37,164 bases of DNA from Euryarchaeota archaeon TMED173 (GTDB lineage: Archaea; Thermoplasmatota; Poseidoniia; Poseidoniales; Thalassarchaeaceae). A program made the position numbers and the translations under genes. Shown here piece after piece: positions 4,804 to 30,118 of the stretch; positions within the stretch are counted from its first letter, which is position 1, and every line of letters begins with the position of its first letter. Location: positions 1-37,164 of the forward strand of contig NHHW01000009.1 of the NCBI GenBank assembly GCA_002172185.1. Direction: 5' to 3'. The notes below the pieces were generated by a model that worked only from the letters and a program-made list of their open reading frames with translations, had not been told where the DNA came from and ran no database searches.

Positions 4804-6168
4804 ATGGAATCATGGAAGGGCCCCATTGAAACCGGAGAAGTCCCGGATGATGGTGAGTCCTTCGATGTCATCGTCGTTGGTGGGGGTCCCAGTGGTTCGG
4901 CTGCGGCCGCGTATAATGCCATGAATGGATGCAGGGTTCTTCTGATTGAGCGTGAAGTCTGGCCTAGAGACAAAATCTGTGGAGACGCAGTAGGTGGAAA
5001 GTCACTCAGTCATGTTAAGGAGCTAGGAGTTAAAGAAATGATTGAGCAGACCCCCCACTTCATGGTTGATTCCATAATTTTCGGTAGTACAAATGGAAAT
5101 ACTGTCAAGGTAATGCTTCCTCAAGACGAGTTTGAGAAGAAGATGGCTGGATATTCTCTCCCTAGGATTCAGTTTGATTATATGATGTTCAAAAGGGCCA
5201 CTGAGTTGGTCATTGAATCTGGAGGATCGGTAATCCAAGGATTCTCAGTAACAGATGTAGAGGTAGAAGATGGATCTATATTGGGAGTCGTGGGGAAGTT
5301 TGGGAAGAGAGGCGAAGATTTCCCTTTGATGAGGTTCAGAGCACCACTCACAATAGGTGCAGGTGGGTACAGGTGTCCCGTTGCGACGACTCTAGTTGAG
5401 GGAATTAATGAGGAGCAAATGAGGGATGATGCCCACTACTGTGGAGCCTACAGAGAGTACTGGGAAAATGTTGGAGGATTTGAAGGAAGAAGCGGACCTA
5501 TCGAGATTCATTTTATCGATGAGGTTATCCCGGGTTACTTCTGGATTTTTCCAGTTCAGGAAGGTATTGTGAACGTAGGTATCGGCATGGTCATTTCGGA
5601 GGAGAAGGCCAGAAGGAAGAAGGGCATTAAGAAATCCTTGAAGAAGATGCAGGAATGGGTGATTAAGGAACACCCTGTTTTCAAGGAGCGCTTCACTAAG
5701 GCTAGATTGATCGATGGCTCTCAGAAGGGTTGGCAGCTTCCATTCGGTTCTCCGAGAAAGCGAGCCCCCTCCCATCAACCAAGACGTTCTGCTGGTGCTG
5801 GCGTTATGTGCGTGGGAGACGCTGCCAGTCTAGTCGATCCCTTTACAGGAGAAGGGATAGGGAATGGGTTAGTTTCTGCAAAAATGACTTCAAAATATTT
5901 TGATAAAGAACTTCATTCTGACGGCTTTCCTGAAGACCAAGCAGAATTGTATATGGAAGATCTCTGGAGTACCCTAGGGAAAGAGCTGACTAATTCATAC
6001 AGACTACAAAAATTGGTGAAGTGGAAGAGAACTATGAATTGGTTCGTTGGTAGGGCCTCGAAGAAAGAAGAATTAGGCGATATTCTTACTGGAATGATTG
6101 CAGACAAGGAGGCGCAGAAGTCACTCTGGAGTCCATGGTTCCTGTTCAAGACATTGGTTCTGCCATAA
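4804..6168 (+). CDS. Geranylgeranyl reductase family flavoprotein
   Basis: A 454-residue FAD-dependent oxidoreductase. The N-terminal dinucleotide-binding motif is VVGGGPSGSAAA (24-35), ending in acidic E49. It is followed by the family motif KICGDAVGG (57-65), a PGYFWIFP segment matching the YxWxFP substrate motif, and CVGDAASLVDPFTGEGIG, the second FAD-binding signature. In archaea such enzymes saturate the geranylgeranyl chains of membrane ether lipids, often with ferredoxin as donor; homologues also act on menaquinone or chlorophyll side chains. The roughly 20 residues before the first strand are a short extension. A HAD phosphatase follows with little or no spacing. Confidence 0.92.
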   Translation: MESWKGPIETGEVPDDGESFDVIVVGGGPSGSAAAAYNAMNGCRVLLIEREVWPRDKICGDAVGGKSLSHVKELGVKEMIEQTPHFMVDSIIFGSTNGNTVKVMLPQDEFEKKMAGYSLPRIQFDYMMFKRATELVIESGGSVIQGFSVTDVEVEDGSILGVVGKFGKRGEDFPLMRFRAPLTIGAGGYRCPVATTLVEGINEEQMRDDAHYCGAYREYWENVGGFEGRSGPIEIHFIDEVIPGYFWIFPVQEGIVNVGIGMVISEEKARRKKGIKKSLKKMQEWVIKEHPVFKERFTKARLIDGSQKGWQLPFGSPRKRAPSHQPRRSAGAGVMCVGDAASLVDPFTGEGIGNGLVSAKMTSKYFDKELHSDGFPEDQAELYMEDLWSTLGKELTNSYRLQKLVKWKRTMNWFVGRASKKEELGDILTGMIADKEAQKSLWSPWFLFKTLVLP

Positions 6169-6188
6169 CAGAATTTGGAAGTGAGGGT

Positions 6189-6968
6189 GTGATTGATGAA
6201 GGCCTTGCTGGGATTGAAGCGGTTTTCTTAGACCTGGATGGTACGATTTATCTTGGGGACAAGTTAATTGATGGTTCCTTGGATTTTCTAAGCAGATTGG
6301 AGAGTAGGGGAATTAGGAGATTTTTTCTATCAAACAACTCTAGTAAATCCGTTCAACAGTATAAGGAAAAGTTGCAGAGCCTAGGCATCAGCGTTAGTGA
6401 TGATGAAGTGCTTCTATCGACACATGACTTGATTTATTGGCTCAGAAATAAGGACGTTGTTGACACCTACCTAGTTGGAACGGAAGGTATGAGATCAATG
6501 CTTGAAGAAGTTGGTATCAGTACAAAGTCTAGTGAGCCCGAGTTGGTTGTCTTGGGATATGATACAGAAGTAACCTACGAGAAGCTCGCTGCTGCTTCTT
6601 CGTTTCTCCATAAGGGGGTTCCGATGGTGGCTAGCCATCCAGATATGGTCTGTCCCTCCCCAGAGGGAGGTTTGCCTGATGCGGGTGCCTACATTGCCCT
6701 ATTAGAGGCGACTACCGGAAAGATTCCAATCCATGTATGCGGAAAGCCGAATAAGGGGATGATTATGCATAAAATAATCGAATTAGGCCTAGATCCTTCT
6801 AATTGCGCGATGGTCGGGGATCGCCTGTATACAGATATGGAAATGGCCGAAAGGGCGGGAGTTCATGGGATTCTTGTTTTATCGGGCGAGGCTTCAGAAG
6901 AAGACTTGGCATCTAGCGGTCTAGAGCCGTCGCTTGTTATTGACTCGGTTTCCTTGCTAGTGGTGTGA
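6189..6968 (+). CDS. HAD-superfamily phosphatase, subclass IIA (NagD/PGP-like)
   Basis: A 259-residue haloacid-dehalogenase hydrolase. Motif I is FLDLDGTIY (nucleophile D15, acid/base D17), motif II FLSNNSS, the cap follows, motif III lysine lies in GKPNKGM, and motif IV is MVGDRLYTDMEMA. Subclass IIA includes NagD, p-nitrophenyl phosphatases and phosphoglycolate/glycerol-phosphate phosphatases; the substrate cannot be assigned. The longest frame begins at 6135 inside the reductase gene, but the GTG at 6189, preceded by a GTGAGGG purine tract, gives a normal-length N-terminus and starts 20 bases after the upstream stop. It is probably co-transcribed with the reductase. Confidence 0.85.
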   Translation: MIDEGLAGIEAVFLDLDGTIYLGDKLIDGSLDFLSRLESRGIRRFFLSNNSSKSVQQYKEKLQSLGISVSDDEVLLSTHDLIYWLRNKDVVDTYLVGTEGMRSMLEEVGISTKSSEPELVVLGYDTEVTYEKLAAASSFLHKGVPMVASHPDMVCPSPEGGLPDAGAYIALLEATTGKIPIHVCGKPNKGMIMHKIIELGLDPSNCAMVGDRLYTDMEMAERAGVHGILVLSGEASEEDLASSGLEPSLVIDSVSLLVV

Positions 6969-26010: not shown

Positions 26011-27255
26011 TCATGAGAGAATATCGTCTACAAGCCAATTGGGATCAAACGGAGATAGATCATCATATCCCTGTCCAGTTCCTGCCAAGACTATCGGTCT
26101 TCCAGTAGCATGGGATATGGAGAGCGCTGCTCCTCCCTTGGCATCTGTATCTAATTTGCAAAGGGCAGCTCCATCGAATGAGAGCTTCTTCTGGAATTCC
26201 ACAGCTTGGTAAACCGCATCATTCCCTGCTAAAGCGTCTGCAACAAAGATCACTAAGTGGGGGTTGGTTACTCTGTGGACCTTTCGAAGTTCCTCCATCA
26301 AATTGGATTTGTTTTGCATCCTTCCGGAGGTATCTACGATTACTATATCTTCTCCCTTGGCCTTCGCACTCTCGATTGCGTCTCTTGCGACGGCGGCAGA
26401 ATCGCCCCCCCTCTGGCTCTTTATGCATCTTATACCCAGTCTATCTCCATGAGCTGCTAACTGATCGATTGCCCCGGCGCGGAATGTGTCTGCAGCAGCC
26501 AGAACGACTGCAAATCCTTGATCCTTCATCCTCTTTGCAATCTTAGCAGAAGTAGTGGTCTTTCCTGTGCCATTAACTCCTACCATCATTATGACTACAG
26601 GAGATTCTTCTTCTACGAGGTTTTGGATTGTTCTATCGAAATCCCAATAACTATTCCCAAGGAGAGAAAGAAGGGCTCCCTTTAGTGCCCTCTCTACTAC
26701 CTGGGCTAGGTTCGTCTTCCTATTTACTCTAGATCCTACTAGGTGGTTTGTTAGAGCCTCTAAAAGTTCTATCACTGCAGTGTGGCCCATATCTGAAGAA
26801 AGTAGCTCTTCTTCTAATTCCTCCAAGAGTTGTTGCAGTACTGGGCCATCTTTGATTACTCTCCCACCTCTTGTTCTTGCATCTCCTCCTAGATCTATCT
26901 CAAACTCGATTTTACCGGACTCTACCAGTTTTCGACCAGTGGTAGAGTTCATAGGATTTCTAACGATCTTGGGTGATTCTGTTTTCTGTGATTTTGTACT
27001 CTTTTCTCTCTGTGCCTTCTTCCTTTCCTTTGAGCTAGACGGTTGCCTGAATGGGTCATCTACTTCTTCTTCAAAGATGTCCCACTGGTTCTCATTAGTG
27101 GGAGCAGCCTCTTCGTGGTCTGATGTTATCTTTTTCAGATTCCTGCTTCTGGATTTGGTTGCATTTGTTGCTTCTGCTGATCCCTCTTCTGCCGTTATTC
27201 CAATTTCTCCCTCTACCTCTTCAATCCTTTTTCTAAAGCGATCAAAAAGTCCCAT
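26011..27255 (-). CDS. ftsY: Signal recognition particle receptor FtsY
   Basis: A 414-residue SRP GTPase. A charged N-terminal region (1-105) precedes the N domain. The G domain has the P-loop GVNGTGKTT (226-234), DTFRAGAIDQL (256-266), DTSGR (308-312), CKLDTDAKGG (366-375) with the usual TKxD Thr replaced by Cys, and the C-terminal GTGQGYDDLSPFD. It docks SRP-ribosome complexes at the membrane. Prefoldin alpha lies nine bases upstream, a gene order common in euryarchaea. The start ATG lies directly before the family-typical MGLFDRFRKR. Confidence 0.97.
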   Translation of the reverse strand: MGLFDRFRKRIEEVEGEIGITAEEGSAEATNATKSRSRNLKKITSDHEEAAPTNENQWDIFEEEVDDPFRQPSSSKERKKAQREKSTKSQKTESPKIVRNPMNSTTGRKLVESGKIEFEIDLGGDARTRGGRVIKDGPVLQQLLEELEEELLSSDMGHTAVIELLEALTNHLVGSRVNRKTNLAQVVERALKGALLSLLGNSYWDFDRTIQNLVEEESPVVIMMVGVNGTGKTTTSAKIAKRMKDQGFAVVLAAADTFRAGAIDQLAAHGDRLGIRCIKSQRGGDSAAVARDAIESAKAKGEDIVIVDTSGRMQNKSNLMEELRKVHRVTNPHLVIFVADALAGNDAVYQAVEFQKKLSFDGAALCKLDTDAKGGAALSISHATGRPIVLAGTGQGYDDLSPFDPNWLVDDILS

Positions 27256-27264
27256 TTTTAGTCC

Positions 27265-27783
27265 TCAGTCATCCAAAGTGAGTTCAGTTCCTCTCTTTCT
27301 ACGAGTTTTTCTCTTCGGTAGTGGTGTTTGGGTTTTTTCTAGTATTTCTGAAGATTCTTCTTGACCCTGAAGTCCCTCTACTGCCTGGTTGAATGTTTTA
27401 GCGAGGGACACGATGTATTCCTCTAGTTGTTCATACTCTTTCCTGATTGTATCCAAAATTCCTTTGAGTTCATTATTTCTATTCCTCAGTATTTCTGTAG
27501 CTTCGTCTCTTGTCTTCTCAGCTTGAATTCTACTACCAATATCGACGACTGCTCCTCCTTTTGGTTGAATATCGGCTATTAACTGGACTCCAGCGCCTAG
27601 GGGAATCATCGCCCCCTTAGCACCTTCTTCTGAGATGGAGTGTAATGCCTCGATAGCTTGCTCCTGTTCAAGTCTGATGCTCTCTAGATTTCTGATCTGC
27701 TGATCGAGTGCCTGTAGTCTCTCTCTATTTACTTCCACTAGGTGTGCTAAGCGCTGTAGATCTGCCTTATCTGCCTCAGCCAT
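27265..27783 (-). CDS. pfdA: Prefoldin alpha subunit
   Basis: A 172-residue cytosolic chaperone subunit. Two long coiled-coil helices (about 8-55 and 95-145) flank the beta-hairpin region GAMIPLGAGVQLIADIQPKGGAVVDIG, the alpha-type prefoldin signature. A Lys/Arg-rich then acidic C-terminal tail adds about 25 residues. With beta subunits it forms the jellyfish-shaped hexamer that passes unfolded proteins to the thermosome. ftsY follows nine bases downstream; the CysC-like fusion gene lies 52 bases upstream. Confidence 0.94.
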   Translation of the reverse strand: MAEADKADLQRLAHLVEVNRERLQALDQQIRNLESIRLEQEQAIEALHSISEEGAKGAMIPLGAGVQLIADIQPKGGAVVDIGSRIQAEKTRDEATEILRNRNNELKGILDTIRKEYEQLEEYIVSLAKTFNQAVEGLQGQEESSEILEKTQTPLPKRKTRRKRGTELTLDD

Positions 27784-27835: not shown

Positions 27836-28726
27836 TTACTCCCCGTCCCATATTCCTTCTGAAATCATGAATTGCATTACTCTTTCAGATACATTAGCTC
27901 TATTCCCACCACGAACGCCTGTGGCGGAAACTTCGAAAACCTCTGGAGGAATGTCTTGAGCCTCTCTTAATTCATATCCAACCTTTCTTCCATATGAGAC
28001 GGCTTCGATGTCTGGCATTATCCATGCCTCAACATCCTCTTCCTGATATCTATACTCAATCATTCGCTTCCTAACCTCTGCAGGATAGGGGTCAGATTCA
28101 GTTACTGGCGTATCTCTGATTCCAACGACAACCCTCTTGCCTTGGTCCAGCTCTTGCTGAATAAGCCATTCGTGCCCCACGTGGAGAGGTTGCCATCTAC
28201 CAGGAAGTAATACTGCCTTGGATTTCTCGAAAAGATGGGATAGTTGGTCTACCATGTCTTCAACAGTATGTCCGGCCTCACCACTAGAATTCAGCGTCAT
28301 ATGGGCACACTTTGGCTCATCAAAGGGGTCAGAGACTCCAGTGAAATTAGAAATTTCCCCGGTTCTCGCCTTCGCATACAGTCCTTTCACATCTCTTTCT
28401 TCGCACACTTCTAGAGATGTGGATACGTGGGCCATCACTGAACCATCTGGAAGAATCTCCAGAATCTTTTCTCGAACGTCCTCATAGGGGGTGATGAATG
28501 AGCAAATTACTGGGGTGTGCTTGGAGATTAGTGATGCCATTCTAGCGATACCAAGCAAGTGTTTTTCCCTACCCTCTCTGGAGAAATCGTTGTTTGAGAA
28601 AAAATCCCTAATTGTGTCTCCATCTAGAAGTTCGGCTCCATACCTCTTTACTGCCGCTTCTGCAATCGTAGTCTTACCAGCACCCGAAAGTCCAATCATC
28701 CAAACAACTGTATTCCCCATGCTCAC
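27836..28726 (-). CDS. CysC-like (APS kinase-like) kinase fused to an HxGH nucleotidyltransferase
   Basis: 296 residues, two domains. Residues 5-168 resemble adenylylsulfate kinase: P-loop GLSGAGKTT (12-20), LLDGDTIR (33-40), FSREGR (48-53), CSFITPYEDVRE (75-86), ERDVKGLYAKARTGE (110-124) and NFTGVSDPF (127-135). The APS-binding NIRR segment is replaced by HLLG (56-59). Residues 170-296 form a NadM/cytidylyltransferase-like domain: PGRWQPLHVGHEWLI (HxGH 182-185) and SATGVR (267-272) for the ISxTxxR motif. It is too short to be ATP sulfurylase, so this is not a normal PAPS synthetase. The sulfate- or nucleotide-linked substrate is unknown. CysQ is 31 bases upstream on the same strand. Confidence 0.85.
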   Translation of the reverse strand: MSMGNTVVWMIGLSGAGKTTIAEAAVKRYGAELLDGDTIRDFFSNNDFSREGREKHLLGIARMASLISKHTPVICSFITPYEDVREKILEILPDGSVMAHVSTSLEVCEERDVKGLYAKARTGEISNFTGVSDPFDEPKCAHMTLNSSGEAGHTVEDMVDQLSHLFEKSKAVLLPGRWQPLHVGHEWLIQQELDQGKRVVVGIRDTPVTESDPYPAEVRKRMIEYRYQEEDVEAWIMPDIEAVSYGRKVGYELREAQDIPPEVFEVSATGVRGGNRANVSERVMQFMISEGIWDGE

Positions 28727-28757: not shown

Positions 28758-29567
28758 TTAATCCTGATTCTCCGACCAGACGTCGTTCCACTTCGTACTA
28801 CAGGTAACTAGGAAAAATGGATTGATCACATCTGTTACCAAATCGTAATCGAGAGTTTCACAGTCTGGCCCGAGCACTTTCCCTCCTGCTGACTCAACTA
28901 CTGCATGGGCTGCGGCTATGTCCCAGCATGATGTAGGTCCGAATCGCGGGTAAAGGTCTGCCGACCCTTCTGCGACAATGCATGCCTTGAGAGATGAGCC
29001 CATCCTGATTATCTCATGCTCTCCGATAGAGCTTGCAAATGCTTCGTCAGTCTTTGACCGATGGCTACCGCTTGCTACTAATCGGACGGGGCCTTCTGGG
29101 CGATTATTCACTGAAATTTCCCTTGTATGTCCTTTCGATATCTTAATTCCGGGTCTCTTTTTTCCGCCATACCACGTGGTTTGAGTAACTGGAGCGTGAA
29201 CTACTCCAAAAACGGGGTCCCACCTGTATGCTTTTCTTCTCATCAGTGCGATGTTTACAGTAAACATGCCATTTCTCTTGATGAATTCCTTAGTGCCATC
29301 GAGTGGATCAACTAACCATGAAAATTCATTGGACATCGCATCTCCGACACGGCCTTCCTCCGAAACAATTGGGGTACTGGGATCGAGCTTCATGAGTCCT
29401 TCAACGATTGTTTCGTGCGCTGCTATGTCAGCTATTGTCAGCGGAGAGTCGTCTTCCTTGGTATGCACCTGAGCATTTGTTGCTGAATCGTAGATGCCCA
29501 TTATTGCACTGCCAGCTTCTATTGCTAGGTCTACAATATCCAGATCTTCATAATCCATCGTTACCAC
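28758..29567 (-). CDS. cysQ: CysQ-type 3'(2'),5'-bisphosphate nucleotidase
   Basis: A 269-residue member of the inositol-monophosphatase fold. Metal-site motifs are SPLTIADIAAH, IVSEEG, WLVDPLDGTKEFI and, near the C-terminus, SCWDIAAAHAVVESAGG. DGTKEF and FTVNIAL are typical of CysQ, which hydrolyses PAP (and PAPS) to AMP (or APS). The start is GTG 29567, overlapping the preceding TAG by one base, or ATG 29558. Placement directly before the CysC-like fusion suggests recycling of a 3'-phosphonucleotide by-product of that pathway (inference). Confidence 0.92.
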   Translation of the reverse strand: MVTMDYEDLDIVDLAIEAGSAIMGIYDSATNAQVHTKEDDSPLTIADIAAHETIVEGLMKLDPSTPIVSEEGRVGDAMSNEFSWLVDPLDGTKEFIKRNGMFTVNIALMRRKAYRWDPVFGVVHAPVTQTTWYGGKKRPGIKISKGHTREISVNNRPEGPVRLVASGSHRSKTDEAFASSIGEHEIIRMGSSLKACIVAEGSADLYPRFGPTSCWDIAAAHAVVESAGGKVLGPDCETLDYDLVTDVINPFFLVTCSTKWNDVWSENQD

Positions 29568-30118
29568 TAGAAGTCCTCTAGTTTAGAAGCAGCTGTTTCT
29601 AGCCTATGTCTTGCATCCTCTTCAAGATAGAATAAGAATGGGTCTTCATCTTCCATAATGTCTTTCCACGAAGACATTGCCCTTGCCCATATCTCTTCTC
29701 TTGAGTTCCAATCTAGCATCCTGTCTACAAATCTACAATATCGTTGGATGTCTTCGTCATCAGGTGCCACTCTTCGCAGAATTTCATTAGTCTGAGCAAT
29801 CATTAGCCCTTGTGTTGGGTTTAGTTTGTATGTGGTGAAAGGGTTTCTTTCTTGATTTATCGTGATATGGTCCCTCCATAGGCCAAAGGTAACGTCGTAT
29901 GAAAACCCCACCAACAGAACGATTGCCAGAACTACCACTGCTATTCCGATTAATCCTAGATAGGTTAGTGGGATTAGAAAGAATGTCTCGCTGGATACGA
30001 ATCTCCATGAGACATATGGCCAGACCAAAAGCGTGATAGTGGCTGTCCAGAAGCCCAGACTGATTATAGCCTGACTCTGCTGAATTCGCCAATATTGCCT
30101 CATCAGCCACTTCTTCAT
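29567..30118 (-). CDS. Two-TM protein of unknown function
   Basis: 183 residues. Two membrane helices (about 17-40 and 48-72) are followed by a charged, Trp-rich soluble region (FVDRMLDWNSREEIWARAM; ending EEDARHRLETAASKLEDF) that is probably cytosolic. I recognise no family. Its stop overlaps the first base of the cysQ GTG, so it is tightly coupled to cysQ and the CysC-like fusion and may be the membrane partner of that module. The L20a gene lies 68 bases upstream. Confidence 0.65.
   Translation of the reverse strand: MKKWLMRQYWRIQQSQAIISLGFWTATITLLVWPYVSWRFVSSETFFLIPLTYLGLIGIAVVVLAIVLLVGFSYDVTFGLWRDHITINQERNPFTTYKLNPTQGLMIAQTNEILRRVAPDDEDIQRYCRFVDRMLDWNSREEIWARAMSSWKDIMEDEDPFLFYLEEDARHRLETAASKLEDF

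Follow-up and report, generated by a model that had tools for sequence, protein, structure and literature searches.

A kinase-nucleotidyltransferase fusion of Marine Group II archaea: a probable PAPS synthetase of miniature size with a proposed new ATP sulfurylase type

To our knowledge, two types of ATP sulfurylase are known, Sat and CysDN. In the known fusions of a sulfurylase with a kinase, the unfavourable sulfurylase step is driven by coupling and by removal of pyrophosphate. Such bifunctional PAPS synthetases, including PAPSS1/2 and the Sat-CysC fusions (Aquifex, PDB 2gks), carry Sat and an APS kinase on one chain of ≈ 550-630 residues, with the kinase at the N-terminus in human PAPSS1 (PDB 1x6v). 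The sulfurylase of the CysDN system consists of CysD and the GTPase CysN, ≈ 900 residues with CysC included. A pathway of the same general logic, nucleotidyl transfer followed by 3'-phosphorylation through a CysC-type kinase, is the CDP-phosphoramidate pathway of Campylobacter (Cj1415/Cj1416). An earlier study described CysD, CysN and CysC in Marine Group IIb archaea and proposed that they supply PAPS to sulfotransferases (PMC6864105).

The gene considered here lies in a window of 37,164 nucleotides (the whole stretch of DNA that was analysed) from a Thalassarchaeaceae (Marine Group IIb) genome whose bin is 45% complete; the records of its relatives go under the names Marine Group II euryarchaeote, Candidatus Poseidoniales, Thalassarchaeaceae or Thalassarchaeum. 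Its product would resemble PAPSS1/2 and the Sat-CysC fusions in uniting a sulfurylase and an APS kinase on one chain, with the kinase N-terminal as in human PAPSS1, but it measures 296 residues and holds no Sat domain (PF01747). Compared with CysDN, the proposed sulfurylase has ≈ 129 residues, another fold and no GTPase. An earlier note on this DNA had drawn attention to the gene on account of a presumed non-APS substrate; the fusion proves more interesting than was thought there, for a different reason: it very probably represents a PAPS synthetase of miniature size, whose ATP sulfurylase is of a new type. To the reading of the protein as a bifunctional PAPS synthetase, with the C-terminal domain as a third ATP sulfurylase class besides Sat and CysDN, we assign a probability of about 0.8.

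Table 1. Features of the fusion gene and its surroundings, in positions of the window
Feature	Position	Strand	Basis
CysC-nucleotidyltransferase fusion gene	27836..28726	(-)	ORF and translation, Pfam, family-wide conservation
N-terminal APS kinase domain, residues 6-166	28229..28711	(-)	PF01583; structure matches; residue map to PMC4373884
C-terminal HxGH nucleotidyltransferase domain, residues 168-296	27839..28225	(-)	A2 profile, AF2 model, Foldseek, NadM alignment
GRWQPLHVGH motif, residues 176-185, putative ATP site	28172..28201	(-)	A2 conservation
YGRKVGY signature, residues 245-251	27974..27994	(-)	A2 conservation; replaces the NMN segment of NadM
SATGVR motif, residues 267-272, ISATxxR-type, putative phosphate binding	27911..27928	(-)	A2 conservation
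cysQ, 3'(2'),5'-bisphosphate nucleotidase (PAP phosphatase), next gene upstream	28758..29567	(-)	TIGR01331
Conserved 183-aa protein, upstream anchor	29567..30118	(-)	No Pfam match; syntenic in fusion and CysD/CysN-CysC loci
Prefoldin subunit, downstream anchor of the slot	27265..27783	(-)	PF02996; same neighbour in fusion and CysD/CysN-CysC genomes
FtsY-like SRP GTPase, downstream anchor	26011..27255	(-)	PF00448 2e-72; synteny

The open reading frame is intact and opens with GTG, although translation more likely begins at the ATG at 28720, because the alignment of homologues begins at Met3 in most cases. The architecture given in the earlier note, a CysC-like kinase fused to an HxGH nucleotidyltransferase, is borne out by the open frame, by matches to PF01583 and PF01467 and by full-length recurrence across genera: since the complete fusion is met again in 40-odd loci from several genera, at 78-95% identity, chance is excluded as its origin. 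Over twelve locus pairs, the mean amino-acid identity of the fusion amounts to 81%, against 58-75% for six neighbouring genes, and the fourfold degenerate sites of fusion and neighbours are saturated alike (≈ 30% identical). Because these silent sites match those of the neighbours, the high conservation reads as constraint, without recent transfer; horizontal transfer had been considered as its cause and was discarded, the fourfold sites having diverged as much as those of the neighbours.

Residues 6-145 match APS_kinase PF01583 (E 6.8e-37; 127.3 bits vs a curated cut-off of 21.1), the top structure matches of the domain are APS kinases (5cb8, 2yvu and PAPSS1), and the domain is 38% identical to the CysC domain of Thalassarchaeaceae CysN-CysC. 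In the NCBI equivalog model TIGR00455 it stays under the cut-off (128.7 vs 138.7 bits); the kinase appears divergent, and its APS specificity is suggested by other features and not assigned by TIGR00455. The P-loop (G12-T20), LDGD (34-37) and KGLYAKAR (114-121) are retained as stated in the earlier note, which had also pointed to HLLG in place of the canonical CysC segment NIRR and concluded that the APS site was altered. The replacement itself stands, with HLLG occupying residues 56-59 and recurring in all aligned Poseidoniales fusions, but this segment does not belong to the core of the site. In the CysC-APS complex of M. tuberculosis the contacts are made by the side chains of D480, R483, F492, R497, K562 and F576 and by backbone atoms of 523/524 (PMC4373884), and the NIRR segment is not among them. 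The aligned counterparts of the six side chains, D37, R40, F48, R53, K114 and F128, are all present in the fusion, and R111 aligns with R559 of M. tuberculosis CysC, one of the APS/ATP-contacting set. As the six contacts are kept and the Aeropyrum APS kinase structure 2yvu likewise shows His-Leu at the NI position, the step from an altered NIRR segment to a non-APS substrate does not hold. Judged from these alignments, nothing in the kinase site speaks against APS as substrate, and robust APS kinase activity would be expected.

It is nevertheless conceivable that the fusion serves a pathway resembling that of PAPS, in which AMP or CMP is transferred onto another small anion (phosphoramidate, a sugar phosphate or a polyol phosphate), the kinase adds the 3'-phosphate and sulfotransferase-like enzymes pass the group on. 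The Cj1415 precedent quoted in the earlier note and the score under the APS kinase equivalog cut-off are in keeping with such a scheme, which we regard as improbable, all the more as the APS-contacting side chains are preserved to the last of the six; the genomic evidence bearing on it is given below.

The C-terminal half matches CTP_transf_like PF01467 over residues 173-226, barely over the cut-off (E 9e-5); a match to PF01747 was absent from the Pfam search of the fusion protein, and the domain matches no ATP sulfurylase model. By profile and by fold it is nearest to NadM and phosphopantetheine adenylyltransferase (PPAT), archaeal NadM being the closest homologue. With the AF2 model of the domain (pLDDT 82), Foldseek places NadM/PPAT nearest, at weak E-values (best 1.5e-3), and the ATP sulfurylase 1jhd at rank 41 (E 0.024). 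The structure models were computed from an alignment that left out the phage rows of annotated records; their confidence is moderate (pLDDT 78 and 82), and the YGRxVGY loop falls below 50 in the full model. With Sat (PF01747; 1jhd) the domain may have the HxGH nucleotidyltransferase fold in common, and the same reaction is proposed for it, but there is no family-level match, the domain is much shorter and its motif spacing is NadM-like. In A2, the alignment and profile of the nucleotidyltransferase domain, GRWQP, H182 and GH are invariant, as are S, A, T and R of SATGVR, and YGR.VGY is invariant both there and in the aligned phage members while missing from aligned NadM.

Homology to NadM spans profile columns 4-77. 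In comparison with five archaeal NadM sequences, the N-terminal ATP half is kept, ≈ 21 residues with the W-V and SxN motifs are missing, RD replaces GSS, and YGRxVGY as well as two conserved arginines have been gained. We take the deleted residues to be the segment that holds NMN in NadM. The shortened domain is compatible with a small anion as acceptor, and R204 and R247 probably line an acceptor pocket that would hold sulfate. NadM is the nearest known homologue and Casjensviridae homologues stand beside a NADAR gene, which might suggest an ordinary NadM or NAD-salvage enzyme that happens to share its chain with a CysC of separate function; such a reading is hardly credible, however, in view of a TIGR01527 score of 20.9 bits, far under the NadM cut-off of 181.2, the loss of the W-V and SxN segment, and partners that are sulfotransferases and APS kinases. 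Moreover, fusion genomes such as G010, G028, G054, G064 and G076 contain a second, weaker NadM-type match in a separate gene, so that the fusion need not supply the NMN adenylyltransferase. This second match and the missing segment also disfavour the plain NMN adenylyltransferase that the earlier note had named as its refuting case, and the NAD-salvage reading of the archaeal protein, tried because of the Casjensviridae neighbour, was abandoned on account of the former. The earlier description of the C-terminal half as NadM-like and not ATP sulfurylase is thus retained in part: the domain lies outside the classical family with NadM nearest, yet it is best read as a new ATP sulfurylase class.

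In most related loci, the fusion is located between CysQ (accompanied in some cases by one or several additional genes) and the prefoldin-FtsY pair; some loci have it inverted or at another place. In four sister genomes without the fusion (G087, G155, G097 and G193; loci L085-L088), the slot CysQ-[X]-prefoldin-FtsY is filled by CysD followed by CysN-CysC, which have the same neighbours, CysQ and sulfotransferases, and both states are found within the genera g3 and g9. An APS kinase is present in 69 of the 148 family genomes, one in each, as 49 fusions, 19 CysN-CysC proteins and one fragment. CysD occurs in exactly the 19 genomes with CysN-CysC and in none of the 49 with the fusion; the overlap of the two systems among the 148 genomes is zero (hypergeometric P 2.5e-4), this and the other co-occurrence P value being approximate, weakened by incomplete metagenome-assembled genomes and shared ancestry. 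Classical Sat (PF01747) was found in 0 of 195 genomes of the class, the same search recovering it in 5 of 14 control genomes. Genome G074, the single member of the class in which both systems appear, was rejected as such a case: its fusion sits on a contig of 4,655 bases (C43, locus L093) with Thalassarchaeaceae-like genes in a bin of another family, which has its own CysD/CysN-CysC, and the contig is probably mis-binned.

The exchange bears on two of the alternatives. That makers of PAPS swap into the slot of the fusion tells against a pathway built on another anion. The lack of both Sat and CysD in fusion genomes, in turn, argues against the idea that the C-terminal domain is inactive or a regulatory nucleotide-binding unit and the protein an APS kinase alone, fed with APS from an unrecognised sulfurylase elsewhere. 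The domain does match no known ATP sulfurylase, and its structural matches are weak; still, HxGH, SATxxR and YGRxVGY are conserved from archaea to phages, and a separate gene encodes the domain in phages and in genomes G025 and G019, which would be odd for a mere regulator, so that we deem this reading quite improbable.

The CysQ neighbour scores above the cut-off of TIGR01331 (238.7 vs 228.8 bits), and the majority of related loci have cysQ close to the fusion. The gene adjoining the fusion is often a sulfotransferase. Sulfotransferases of PF00685 are encoded in 38 of 49 genomes with the fusion, in 16 of 19 with CysD and CysN-CysC, and in 18 of the 79 other family genomes (fusion vs other genomes, Fisher P 1.4e-9, approximate as above); these 18 have a sulfotransferase-like gene although they lack an APS kinase, and in the window's own genome, 45% complete, PF00685 was not found, both of which weigh against the proposed reading. 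In another family, the fusion of G104 stands among different genes, with sulfotransferases at a distance of 2-4 kb, and a divergent fusion (G053; L092) is directly followed by one. Because of the replacement by CysD and CysN-CysC, the adjacent CysQ, the linked sulfotransferases and the pairing with canonical CysC in phages (see below), the small molecule is taken to be sulfate and the product PAPS; it is from replacement and linkage that we infer the sulfate specificity of the C-terminal domain. The same observations lead away from the phosphoramidate analogy of the earlier note, the fusion being set apart from Cj1415/Cj1416 by its context (CysQ, sulfotransferases, exchange with CysDN).

A gene pair in another family of the class (G033; L091, 8443-9474) comes closer to the Cj1415/Cj1416 idea than the fusion of the window does: there, a CysC of 175 residues is followed by an RfaE/TagD-like cytidylyltransferase of 166 residues within a surface-polysaccharide cluster; it was considered as a member of the present family and set aside, its nucleotidyltransferase looking RfaE-like.

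In the mechanism that we infer from the genes, motifs, replacement and linkage directly seen, ATP would be bound by the C-terminal domain through HxGH and SATxxR, and sulfate would attack its alpha phosphate, giving APS and pyrophosphate. APS would then move to the CysC domain of the same chain and be phosphorylated at the 3'-OH to PAPS, a step suggested by the kinase family and the retained residues, and coupling together with pyrophosphate removal would pull the unfavourable first reaction. The linked genes suggest that sulfotransferases spend the PAPS on sulfation and that CysQ hydrolyses the leftover PAP. The logic put forward in the earlier note, one protein that activates a small molecule with a nucleotide and then adds a 3'-phosphate, is thereby preserved, with sulfate as the probable small molecule. 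In the open-access papers that were searched, no mention was found of an ATP sulfurylase described as minimal, alternative or new.

When the full fusion was used as query, no relatives were found in viral contigs; the A2 alignment of the nucleotidyltransferase retrieved at least 573, most of which are separate proteins with a length of 111-154 residues. Of 80 viral nucleotidyltransferase loci, 68 contain a CysC homologue, usually abutting or overlapping. The partner in L116-L120, which overlaps the nucleotidyltransferase, is a canonical CysC that carries NIRR and KGLY (PF01583 1.6e-67 in L117, where the standalone nucleotidyltransferase spans 5998-6399), and further canonical partners occur in L109, L111 and L113. 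This repeated pairing suggests that the nucleotidyltransferase makes the substrate of the APS kinase. The viral nucleotidyltransferases also have sulfotransferases in their vicinity, which belong to the Pfam families 1, 2 and 3. Since the L115 sulfotransferase as sole query returned 6 loci, an alignment of phage sulfotransferases was used instead; of the 80 loci so obtained, kinase and nucleotidyltransferase occur together in the same 44, never one alone, in the constant order sulfotransferase-kinase-nucleotidyltransferase and on a constant strand, and CysD/CysN in none of the 80. The sulfotransferases used as queries stem from contigs that carry the module, and many loci are related, so that the linkage is strong but represents fewer than 44 independent events.

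The majority of the phage partners have a short lid and lack KGLY, and the substrate of these kinases may differ from APS. A tree of CysC sequences resolves the partner kinases into distinct clades, one of the archaeal fusions, one of the short-lid kinases and two of canonical phage sequences. The frequent lack of KGLY is in line with a pathway for an anion other than sulfate, against which stand the phage members paired with canonical NIRR/KGLY CysC. Returning to sulfate activation, it is on the whole likely that the NadM-derived domain of ≈ 115-135 residues is a third, independently evolved ATP sulfurylase class, which forms half of a compact PAPS synthetase in Marine Group II and is carried, with APS kinase and sulfotransferases, by many aquatic viruses that activate sulfate in order to sulfate surface glycans or other targets. 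If true, a third type of ATP sulfurylase of about one third the size or less would be at hand, and with it the smallest PAPS synthetase with which to produce sulfated compounds. For abundant ocean archaea, the annotation of sulfate activation would be corrected, as fusion genomes now seem to be without ATP sulfurylase, the purpose of some virus-borne APS kinase genes would be explained, and the slot would provide a clean case of an enzyme swapped in place for an unrelated one.

Several minor observations concern the viral modules and their relatives. The short-lid CysC-like kinases upstream of the nucleotidyltransferase in L115-L188 comprise ≈ 135-160 residues with the pattern HIDGDDLR...GREHFHV...YEPP and no KGLY; in the sulfotransferase-seeded set they are always accompanied by the nucleotidyltransferase, and some may carry a viral cysC annotation. 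Kinase-nucleotidyltransferase fusions of ≈ 245 residues occur in the phages Bhz60, AhaSv and DLP_6 (L077, 5989-6729; L080, 5989-6735; L078, 5995-6726), with both domains covered at ≈ 26% identity, and the gene in L077 adjoins genes annotated NADAR and DNA methyltransferase. In G025 and G019 (L089, 8721-9484; L090, 8960-9728) the two domains are split into adjacent genes, a short CysC-like kinase that groups with the phage short-lid kinases and a nucleotidyltransferase of 112-114 residues, located beside an S-adenosylmethionine synthetase-like gene. Finally, a DUF2061 membrane domain is fused to or adjoins the viral APS kinase-nucleotidyltransferase module in L111 (3110-3820), L113 (4923-5633) and L112 (6320-6745), a possible tie to sulfate handling.
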